Source: Streptomyces sp. BK208 (GTDB taxonomy: Bacteria > Actinomycetota > Actinomycetes > Streptomycetales > Streptomycetaceae). Taken from it: a DNA stretch of 64,000 nucleotides. The translations under genes were made by a program, and so were the position numbers. Shown piece after piece: positions 42,997-45,860 of the stretch. How positions within the stretch are numbered: position 1 is the first letter of the stretch; every line of letters begins with the position of its first letter. A model generated the notes under the pieces. That model made no database searches. It had not been told where the DNA came from and saw only the letters and a program-made list of their open reading frames with translations. The stretch lies in NCBI RefSeq assembly GCF_004364245.1, contig NZ_SOAV01000008.1:62001-126000 (forward strand). The letters run 5' to 3'.

Positions 42997-43611
42997 TCAG
43001 CGGCCGGTGGGCGGCGTGTACTTGTAACCGACCCGGCGCACCGTCTGGATCGTCTGCCGGTGCTCCGCGCCGAGCTTCCGGCGCAGCCGGGCCACGTGCA
43101 CGTCGACGGTGCGGCCGTCGCCCACGTGTCCGTAGCCCCACACCGTGGTGACCAGCTGGTCGCGGGTGTGGACCCGGTGCGGGTGCGCGACGAGATGGGC
43201 GAGCAGTTCGAACTCCAGATAGGTCAGGTCGAGTTCACGACCCTCCACGGCGGCGGTGCGCCGCGCGGGGTCGATCCGGACGAGCGGGTTCTCGCCCGGG
43301 ACCCGGTCTCGGGGCCGGTTCTGCGCCGGAAGGCCCGGGATCCGGTCCCGGCTCCGGCCCGGGTCCCCGAAGGGCGGCTGCTGGTCGGCCGGGACGAGCA
43401 CCAGGTAGCCGACCATCGGCGGATGCCCCGGCAGCGCCGGGAGGGTGTGCGGGGGCGCGGGCAGCCAGGTGGCGCCCGGCGGCAGCAGGTCCGCGACGTC
43501 CACCACCTCGTCCGGATCGACGGCGCGCAGCCGGTGCCGGGGGCTGCCGGTGTCGGGACGGACGGCGGGGGAGTCGAGGGTGACGGTGGACAGGGAACGG
43601 GTGGTCGCCAT
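42997..43611 (-). CDS. glnRII: OmpR-type winged-helix regulator GlnRII
   Basis: 204 residues. The C-terminal ~95 residues are an OmpR/PhoB winged helix: LDLTYLEFELLAHLVAHPHRVHTRDQLVTTVWGYGHVGDGRTVDVHVARLRRKLG. The N-terminal half is shorter than a receiver and has no recognisable phospho-Asp or switch Lys, so it should not be phosphorylated; it is Pro-rich. From its position near glnII and its domain it corresponds to GlnRII of S. coelicolor, which was reported to bind nitrogen-gene promoters (established). A candidate leader peptide lies 131 bp upstream. Confidence 0.85.
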   Translation of the reverse strand: MATTRSLSTVTLDSPAVRPDTGSPRHRLRAVDPDEVVDVADLLPPGATWLPAPPHTLPALPGHPPMVGYLVLVPADQQPPFGDPGRSRDRIPGLPAQNRPRDRVPGENPLVRIDPARRTAAVEGRELDLTYLEFELLAHLVAHPHRVHTRDQLVTTVWGYGHVGDGRTVDVHVARLRRKLGAEHRQTIQTVRRVGYKYTPPTGR

Positions 43612-43742
43612 GAGACGTCAGCTCTTTCGCGCGAGAGGTTCGTCGGGAGGGGCGACGGGCGCGAGTTCGTGGTCGGGCGCGTCGCGGGACGTACGTCGTG
43701 CGCACCGGCGGCAGGCGCAGAAGGCCTGGGATGTACGGCTTC

Positions 43743-43865
43743 CTAGCGGGCCGGCGCGATCGTCGCGCGGCAACACACCCGGTCGAAGTCGTCGTGCTGA
43801 CGGGAAGGCCAGAAGGGCTCGAGGTCATGGCGACCCGTCGCTGCGTACTTCCGGAAGCTGGCCAT
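43743..43865 (-). CDS. Candidate short ORF with SRQHDDFDRVCCR motif upstream of glnRII
   Basis: 40 codons from an ATG at 43865 (or 43 from 43874), ending TAG 131 bp before glnRII. 35 of 40 third positions are G or C, and it encodes LEPFWPSRQHDDFDRVCCRA. The piece SRQHDDFDRVCCR resembles the SRRHxDxxRV...CR pattern of small Cys-containing leader peptides seen before sulfur genes in actinobacteria. Ribosome site is weak. It may be a leader peptide or a small protein. Confidence 0.4.
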   Translation of the reverse strand: MASFRKYAATGRHDLEPFWPSRQHDDFDRVCCRATIAPAR

Positions 43866-43909
43866 GGGCCCCATTGAAGCAGACGGCGGCGGGGGAGAGG
43901 AGAGTCCTC

Positions 43910-44686
43910 TCAGTGCGTGGACGCCGGCCGGCCGGGATCCGGACGTCGAAACGGTCGTCCCACCAGCCGTTTGCGCCGGTTCAGCGGGGCGACCTCGATC
44001 GCCCGGCCCGGGCCACCGTCCCACTGCGCGGACAGGCCGGAGCCCGCGAACGCGGCCACGACCTCGTGCCCGGCGGCCGTGGTCGTCTCCTGCGAGCCGT
44101 CGAAACCGCCGTAGTGCAGCATGAGCCCGTGGCCCTCGGCGGCGGCCTCGGTGCTCTGCCGGTGGAAGAAGACGAAGCCCCGGGCGCCCCGGCGCTCCGC
44201 GCCGATCTCCGCCGCCCCGCAGCCCCGGCAGCAGGTGAAGTCCTCCCGGGCGGTGATGCCGGCCGCGTCCAGGGCCTCGAAGACCCGGGTGAGCCGGTCC
44301 GGGTCGGTGGTCTCCCCGCCCCAGCTCTCCTGCTCGGCCACCCGCTCCCGCCACAGCGCGGTCCACCAGCAGCCCGGCCTGGGCACGGGAGACCGGCCGC
44401 TCGCCGTACGCGCCGCCGACGAGGTGTTCCTCCGCGATCTCCGTCAGCGTCCCGCGGTCGTCGTGGCCGCAGGGGAGCTGCTCGCACACCCGCTGCCCGA
44501 CCTGCCCTCGTGCCACACCTGGGCGAACACGTCGGGGAGGTCAGGTATCCGCTGCATCAGCAGGAAGCGGTCGCCGGCTCGGCCGATACGCGCGATCAGC
44601 TCCCGCAGCTCCGCCGCACGCGACCGGGTGTGCGTCCGTCCGCTCTCCGTGAGGACCTTGAGGGCGAGGACTCCGCCGATCTCCAT
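43910..44686 (-). pseudogene. DUF6891 gene with two compensating frameshifts
   Basis: The ATG at 44686 (MEIGGVLALKVLTESGRTHTR) begins a frame that, after VFAQVWHEG, hits a stop at 44444. The family sequence continues in another frame (QRVCEQLPCGHDDRGTLTEIAEEHLVGG...VSRAQAGLLVDR), then returns to the first frame at LWRERVAEQESWGGETTDPDRLTRVF. A one-base loss near 44515 and one-base gain near 44360 would explain this; both lie in G/C-rich runs. The C-terminal domain (FTCCRGCGAAEIG, GFVFFHRQSTE) is intact. Either a broken gene or two sequencing errors. Confidence 0.65.
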
Positions 44687-44727
44687 GTCCCCACCCTCGC
44701 ACGCGCCACTGACGGCGCGGGCCGGTC

Positions 44728-45759
44728 TCAGACCTGGCCGGCCTTCTCCAGCGCCGTGCAGCAGGTGTCGACGAGCAGCCGCGTCACCACGTACGGGTCG
44801 ACGTTGGCGTTGGGGCGGCGGTCCTCGATGTACCCCTTGCCGTCCTTCTCGACCTGCCACGGGATGCGCACCGAGGCGCCCCGGTCGGAGACGCCGTAGG
44901 AGTACTCGTTCCACGGGGCGGTCTCGTGCAGGCCGGTGAGGCGGTCGTCGATGCCGGCGCCGTAGTTCTTGACGTGGTCCAACGGCTTGGACCCCTCACC
45001 GAGCGACTCGGCGGCGGTGATGATGGCGTCGTACCCCTCGCGCATCGCCCTGGTGGAGAAGTTGGTGTGCGCGCCCGCGCCGTTCCAGTCGCCCTTGACC
45101 GGCTTGGGGTCGAGGGTGGCGGAGACCTCGAAGTCCTCGGCCGTGCGGTAGAGCAGCCAGCGGGCCACCCACAGCTGGTCGGAGACCTCCAGCGGGGACA
45201 GCGGGCCGACCTGGAACTCCCACTGGCCGGGCATGACCTCGGCGTTGATGCCGGAGATGCCGAGTCCGGCCTTGAGGCAGTTCTCCAGGTGCGCCTCGAC
45301 GACGTCGCGGCCGAAGATCTCGTCCGAGCCGACACCGCAGTAGTAGCCCCCCTGCGCGGCCGGGAAGCCGCCCTCGGGGAAGCCGAGCGGGCGGGCGCCC
45401 TTGAAGAAGGTGTACTCCTGCTCGATGCCGAAGATCGGCTCCTGCGCGGCGAAGCGCTCGGTCAGCTCGGCCAGTTCGGCGCGGGTGTTGCTCGGGTGCG
45501 GCGTCATGTCCGTGTCGAGGACCTCGCACAGCACCAGGATGTCGTCGCCGCCGCGGATCGGGTCGGGGCAGGAGAAGACCGGCCTCAGCACGCAGTCCGA
45601 GGAGTTGCCCTCGGCCTGGTTGGTGGAGGAGCCGTCGAAGCCCCAGACGGGCAGCGCGTCCAGGCCGGCGGGGGCATCCGTGATGATCTTCGTCTTGGAA
45701 CGGAGCTTGGCCGTCGGCTCGGTGCCGTCGATCCAGATGTACTCGGCCTTGAAGGTCAC
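44728..45759 (-). CDS. glnII: Glutamine synthetase type II
   Basis: 343 residues, the eukaryote-like GSII (class II) that makes glutamine from glutamate, NH4+ and ATP, oxygen- and heat-labile in Streptomyces. Visible motifs: WGFDGSSTNQAEGNSSDC (N-terminal), GIEQEYTFF, GINAEVMPGQWEFQVGP, DWNGAGAHTNFSTRAMR and NYGAGIDDRLTGLHETAPW. There is no adenylylation loop, so GlnE does not control it. GTG 45759 (AGGA 10 nt upstream) gives the family length; the GTG at 45768 is too near the ribosome site. A GlnR box lies 100-140 bp upstream. Confidence 0.96.
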   Translation of the reverse strand: MTFKAEYIWIDGTEPTAKLRSKTKIITDAPAGLDALPVWGFDGSSTNQAEGNSSDCVLRPVFSCPDPIRGGDDILVLCEVLDTDMTPHPSNTRAELAELTERFAAQEPIFGIEQEYTFFKGARPLGFPEGGFPAAQGGYYCGVGSDEIFGRDVVEAHLENCLKAGLGISGINAEVMPGQWEFQVGPLSPLEVSDQLWVARWLLYRTAEDFEVSATLDPKPVKGDWNGAGAHTNFSTRAMREGYDAIITAAESLGEGSKPLDHVKNYGAGIDDRLTGLHETAPWNEYSYGVSDRGASVRIPWQVEKDGKGYIEDRRPNANVDPYVVTRLLVDTCCTALEKAGQV

Positions 45760-45860
45760 GGGGGCCACATCCTTCGGGGTGGTCTGGGCGCACTCGCGGG
45801 TGCTGCGGCGCTGGGCGGCAGGGGCGCCGCGTCTACTGCCGTGCAGCCTGCCAACGGGCG

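Follow-up and report, generated by a model that had tools for sequence, protein, structure and literature searches.

In Streptomyces sp. BK208, the regulator gene glnRII is preceded by a short reading frame, which raises the question of whether this frame encodes a leader peptide and, if so, what it reports to the regulator behind it. The original prediction proposed a leader with two adjacent Cys codons that would sense charged Cys-tRNA and tie sulfur to nitrogen control. The frame was analyzed within the surrounding window, a 64,000-nucleotide stretch of contig NZ_SOAV01000008.1, and compared across Streptomycetaceae and more distant families.

The reading frame and its predicted promoter

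The frame is present on the minus strand at positions 43743-43874, downstream of the DUF6891 gene and of glnII (44728-45768, NF041605 match). Its TAG stop codon (43743-43745) lies exactly 131 nt ahead of the glnRII ATG at 43611, bearing out the coordinates and the distance given originally. The proposed length of 40 to 43 codons can be narrowed: the frame is a real ORF, and its likely start is the ATG at 43863-43865 (MASF...), three codons inside the start first proposed, because the outer ATG (43872-43874) overlaps a conserved -10-like box, TTCAAT (43873..43878, minus strand). The resulting leader ORF (43743..43865, minus strand) comprises 40 codons plus the stop, encodes MASFRKYAATGRHDLEPFWPSRQHDDFDRVCCRATIAPAR, and has a conserved start and core. 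Counted from the ATG at 43865, G or C ends 34 of the 40 codons, so that the strong wobble GC noted earlier stands at a count of 34 rather than 35.

The -10-like box reads TTCAAT or TTGAAT in 189 of 196 loci and, by column conservation, is part of a wider block, TCTGcTTSAATgG (approximately 43871-43883, minus strand); a weak -35-like position, CTCCTC (43897..43902, minus strand; consensus ctcCtg), lies 18 nt from the box and is only moderately conserved. The spacing between the box and the ATG is nearly constant, at 6 nt in 171 and 7 nt in 22 of the 196 loci. In 105 of 110 distinct loci, TTSAAT stands 6-7 nt ahead of an ATG; in the larger set, a broader pattern (TTCAAT, TTGAAT or rarely TANNNT 6-7 nt ahead of an in-frame ATG) holds for 193 of 196. 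When both strands of the window were scanned, TT[CG]AAT-N6-7-ATG occurred a single time. A scan for the plain sigma-70 consensus found no match at the leader promoter, and the promoter assignment therefore rests on position and conservation. Leader copies in another family (f20) independently show TANNNT-N6-[AG]TG starts. The leader transcript is thus predicted to be leaderless, given a -10-like box 6-7 bases before the ATG: RNA polymerase would probably start at, or within one or two bases of, the leader ATG, and ribosomes would hence begin at the very first codon.

The DUF6891 gene (43910-44914, minus strand), located between glnII and glnRII, seems to be broken across three frames, with the N-terminal part in the ORF at 44444-44914, the middle in a long ORF at 43743-44516, and the C-terminal part in 43910-44386. 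Such a split probably reflects frameshifts, introduced by mutation or by assembly error.

Conservation of the peptide and of its cysteine codon

The leader closely follows the distribution of glnRII. Its 20-aa C-terminal part has matches adjoining glnRII in 54 of 61 Streptomyces genomes, and the 40-aa consensus matches 286 of 298 Streptomycetaceae genomes, in 16 of 17 genera, with some of the matches being weak. When presence of glnRII was defined as a good match (E below 1e-49), the leader was found in all 54 sampled Streptomyces genomes with glnRII and in none of the 7 without it (Fisher p = 2e-9, a value that ignores the relatedness of the genomes). Wherever checked in Streptomycetaceae, the leader directly precedes glnRII. 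The frame, of a kind that precedes sulfur genes elsewhere, thus lies before glnRII in almost all Streptomyces relatives, which suggests control of the regulator by the supply of cysteine or sulfur in addition to nitrogen. Searches of Pfam, NCBIfam and Rfam with the leader returned no match; no credible second copy was detected in the genome of this window, and no real match in the plasmid collection.

In Streptomyces, the alignment reads M(A)SFQK.TATGRHDLEPFWPSRQHHDFDRVCCRA.NA.AL, and LEPFWPSR is retained across nearly all Streptomycetaceae genera. The conserved core, DLEPFWPSRQHDDFDRVCC (43770..43826, minus strand), corresponds across families to the motif L-[ED]-x-F-W-x-x-R-[RQ]-x3-F-D-x2-C (alignments A1 and A2); in alignment A2, which comprises the relatives, L, F, W, R and C are invariant, and F and D nearly so. 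For the core codons, 196 distinct loci give a pS of 0.30 and a pN of 0.057 (pN/pS 0.19), a pattern not found in the other two frames over the same loci. Purifying selection thus acts on the leader peptide, and this frame-specific selection rules out an overlapping gene or a random frame. The same result bears on the notion that the segment is a DNA or RNA signal (an operator, a promoter or a folded RNA) that merely resembles a coding frame. Such a signal would fit the unusually fixed third positions of a GGT and a TGT codon and the conservation of the promoter block and of elements just before glnRII; however, the low pN/pS is confined to the leader frame, synonymous changes occur at many codons of the alignment, and no Rfam family scores above threshold, all of which makes this notion hardly credible. 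The GGT in question is leader codon 11 (Gly, 43833-43835), which is GGT in 182 of 196 loci, the share of GGT among Gly codons of the window being approximately 8%; it perhaps belongs to a small RNA hairpin (GGTC...GACC) within the ORF.

The Cys pair fared differently from the frame in the alignment of many Streptomyces: only the first Cys is invariant. At its codon (43773..43775, minus strand), TGT stands in all family loci but one (195 of 196) and in all 23 distant loci, compared with a background of 10 of 110 Cys codons (9%) in the genes of this window and 39 of 218 (18%) in the genes surrounding the distant copies. The second codon (TGC; 43770..43772, minus strand) is TGC or TGT in 178 of 196 loci and otherwise mostly an Arg or Pro codon, the residue being Pro or Arg in several genera so that the leaders read CC, CR or CP depending on the genus. 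The glnRII leader accordingly lacks a conserved series of Cys codons close to its end; as read from the alignments, its conserved feature is a single UGU Cys codon combined with the extended motif LEPFWPSR..FD. The copies are related by descent and do not represent independent trials, but without selection acting on the codon it would be difficult to account for a UGU that is fixed in several families.

Taken with the context described below, these features make it probable that a cis-acting leader peptide responsive to cysteine or sulfur controls glnRII. Ribosomes translating DLEPFWPSRQ..FD would reach a poor Cys codon, UGU, where their speed would report the cysteine supply, most simply via charged tRNA-Cys, and the invariant nascent segment could sharpen the pause or make it more specific. 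A shortage of cysteine, or a bound sulfur metabolite, would slow the ribosomes there, and the pausing state would set the level of glnRII expression. By analogy with mycobacterial Cys leaders, a shortage of cysteine would be expected to raise glnRII. Counting against this reading, there is one invariant Cys codon, fewer than in known polycysteine attenuators, and simple attenuation by tRNA charging needs no conservation far from the Cys codon.

That distant conservation favors some role of the nascent chain and, in its strongest form, would point to an arrest peptide: nascent LEPFWPSR..FD..C would stall the ribosome and sense free cysteine or a sulfur metabolite in the exit tunnel, with Rho-dependent termination downstream and without charged tRNA-Cys as the signal. 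Residues far from the Cys (L, F, W, R, F and D) are indeed fixed as firmly as the Cys itself, distant copies often stop at or just after it (FDQIC*, FDQICC*), the locus lacks an intrinsic terminator, and some of the genes behind related leaders dispose of cysteine or sulfite. However, it is the codon and not the residue alone that is fixed, which points to decoding rate, and the Streptomyces leaders continue for about nine codons beyond the first Cys. We consider arrest of this kind unlikely, and a cysteine-responsive leader that is read through its UGU codon remains the preferred reading. TnaC of E. coli, likewise a short leader, exerts downstream control without an intrinsic terminator and has an essential Trp located approximately 12 residues ahead of its last key residue. 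The glnRII leader shares this Trp spacing and the lack of an intrinsic terminator, with no sequence relation shown between the two.

The interval before glnRII

The 131 nt between the leader stop and glnRII (43612..43742, minus strand) include a palindrome, GACGTACGTC (43688..43697), that is widely but not universally conserved in Streptomyces, and a conserved element, TCGCGCGAAAGAGC (43621..43634, minus strand), that contains the probable glnRII ribosome binding site. The latter element was found in 177 of 196 loci, with the glnRII start codon usually 9 nt downstream of it. No terminator-like site (a hairpin with a U-run) was found in 43550-44050; intrinsic termination is therefore unlikely, and a classical attenuator with terminator and antiterminator hairpins was rejected. 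Coupling of the leader to glnRII would instead proceed by Rho-dependent termination or by translational control.

One form of translational control, a switch at the ribosome binding site, found no support in folding. In folding of the alignment, the Cys-Arg-Ala codons (CGCGCG) may pair with a CGCGCG ahead of the glnRII binding site, but single-sequence folding gave mixed results for this pairing, and the pairing segment is missing in one genus (g42). When a ribosome was modelled on the UGU in 35 sequences, access to the glnRII binding site did not change (mean change -0.02, p 0.17), a result that counts against the Cys-leader reading; only the CGCGCG just before the binding site opened (0.11 to 0.32).

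The length of the interval also bears on the proposal that the ORF mainly brings ribosomes to glnRII or holds Rho off, sensing no amino acid. Leaderless ORFs are described as common in actinobacteria (PMC9031893), and leader ORFs may raise downstream translation via reinitiation, for which a distance of 10-11 bp is favored in the account of PMC4833913. Conversely, glnRII usually lies approximately 60-135 nt from the leader across loci, and ribosome delivery needs neither the peptide sequence nor UGU, yet both are conserved; this role on its own is highly improbable.

The preferred reading, a cysteine-responsive leader, has precedents in actinobacteria. Cys leaders were predicted in 2005 before the cys operons of Mycobacterium and Propionibacterium, with Rho-dependent control suggested for the mycobacterial ones (Seliverstov et al., PMC1262725); leaderless small ORFs with Cys codons were seen in M. 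smegmatis by ribosome profiling (Shell 2015, PMC4633059), and the mycobacterial Cys leaders are described as cysteine responsive (Canestrari 2020, as cited in PMC9031893; also PMC9094748). Like the mycobacterial polycysteine ORFs, the glnRII leader is a short ORF directly upstream of its gene, leaderless by prediction, with a Cys near its end, no obvious terminator and sulfur-linked relatives. In contrast to them, it has one invariant UGU in place of a Cys run, the extended LEPFWPSR..FD segment, and a transcription regulator as its target in place of a cys operon. Similarly, the 2005 leaders are Cys-ending ORFs without a terminator hairpin, but they carry Cys runs before cys operons and cbs, and the passages of that paper on these leaders include no glnRII case (PMC1262725). 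The amino acid leaders of S. lividans are likewise mostly leaderless, several without a clear terminator, but the eight listed in Table 4 of PMC8079986 are for Leu, Trp, Ala, Ile, Met and Thr, with no cysteine or glnRII leader among them. Thus, the glnRII leader differs from the known Cys leaders in its single invariant Cys codon, its long fixed motif and its regulatory target.

Sulfur genes and GlnRII-type regulators behind related leaders

When the taxonomic class was searched with a profile, clean matches were confined to a few families. The genes downstream of these distant copies, typed by Pfam on representatives, include some with sulfur functions. For example, relatives of the leader precede a TauE/SafE protein in one genus (g8 of family f6), a peptide-type (SBP_bac_5) ABC transporter or luciferase-like flavin monooxygenases in family f20, and cysteine dioxygenase followed by rhodanese in families f9 (G170) and f30 (G505). 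In addition, four f20 genomes (G683, G718, G604 and G746) carry a copy before a GlnRII-like winged-helix protein, and a fifth (G732) carries the same leader variant. The proposed resemblance to actinobacterial sulfur-gene leaders thus held up, with a conserved leader ORF whose relatives precede sulfur genes elsewhere. These genes mix scavenging and disposal functions, and a single sign of response is therefore not obvious.

This genomic context also bears on whether the product is a stable small protein acting in trans, perhaps on GlnRII, for example by binding a metal or a partner via His, Asp and Cys. Strong conservation of the amino acids over approximately 20 residues, under purifying selection, is what such a protein would show. 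However, relatives lie directly before unrelated sulfur genes, and paralogues of GlnRII have a different leader type at the same place, both of which fit a role in cis; furthermore, the His residues vary among copies and the fixation of UGU would be left unexplained, so that a protein acting in trans is improbable.

The regulator behind the leader in this window is 204 aa long, and its only Pfam match, apart from a sub-threshold GerE match, is to an OmpR-type winged helix (PF00486, 2.3e-25). It contains no Cys residue, and the winged helix at its C terminus, the lack of any match to a receiver domain and a location close to glnII assign it to the GlnRII type. GlnRII received its name as a nitrogen regulator in 2002, but when glnRII was deleted in S. 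venezuelae, nitrogen-responsive genes were not significantly perturbed and no nitrogen role was found (PMC3087709); GlnRII does bind the promoters of some nitrogen genes (PMC10704036). Because the published mutant shows no nitrogen defect, the proposed tie between sulfur and nitrogen control is doubtful. Since GlnRII has no established nitrogen role (PMC3087709), a sulfur role would be the consequence of greater interest and easier to test.

Among twelve GlnRII paralogues taken from other Streptomyces genomes, which show 54-76% identity across the aligned portion, 7 are preceded by another type of leader, such as QQRLVRRRHVDFGHVVSAACCRA. RefSeq annotates this type (RRHxD..VxSAxCR) as "putative leader peptide," and on plasmid records it stands before LLM flavin monooxygenases, a sulfatase, and a sulfite reductase with PAPS reductase. 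GlnRII-type regulators are thus repeatedly located behind sulfur-type leaders of two kinds. The two kinds share the SRx-H..D..RV..C resemblance, a Cys that is usually UGU, a sulfur context and a place before GlnRII-type genes. Unlike the glnRII leader, the RefSeq type lacks LEPFW and has its Cys four residues further from SRx; SRQH-DF-RV aligns, but the different spacing to the Cys leaves the glnRII leader outside the motif R-R-H-x-D-[LFY]-x-R-V-x-[ST]-A-x-C-R. A profile comparison of the glnRII-type leaders (A2) with the classic family (A3) by hhalign was not significant (probability 1.2%, P 0.043) and does not establish homology of the two families. In the classic family, the Cys before Arg is TGT in 18 of the 21 copies that have a Cys, the three exceptions forming one paralogue group. 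UGU for the final Cys, which the glnRII leader shares, is a trait noticed in this analysis and not a published criterion. In the RefSeq family (loci L307-L321), the final Cys is nearly always TGT, a trait absent from the literature passages on that family.

The broadest interpretation is a tentative one, possible rather than probable: a family of actinobacterial nascent-chain sensors, undescribed in the openly licensed literature and defined by a fixed UGU and the motif L-[ED]-x-F-W-x-x-R-[RQ]-x3-F-D-x2-C, may arrest ribosomes according to the supply of cysteine, thereby controlling both sulfur genes and GlnRII regulators, GlnRII itself being a regulator of sulfur and not of nitrogen. A leader that is common to sulfur genes, and that is swapped for another sulfur-type leader at the GlnRII paralogues, marks sulfur or cysteine limitation as the place to seek a GlnRII phenotype. 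Furthermore, the leader family, recognizable by its motif and by the unusual fixation of a UGU codon, should be useful for finding actinobacterial sulfur genes.

At several of the paralogue loci (L322, L323, L329 and L331-L333), a conserved near-palindrome resembling TTTCCTATngATttACTAGGGAA and, after it, GTTGACG lie immediately ahead of the leader ORF. This near-palindrome is a candidate operator. Finally, a divergent second copy of the leader, MTTCGTTLTPFWPSRRDHVFDGLCCRAF, was found in a Streptomycetaceae genome (L336 in G206; also at L117), approximately 72 nt before a carbonic-anhydrase-like gene, which we take to encode a carbonic anhydrase.
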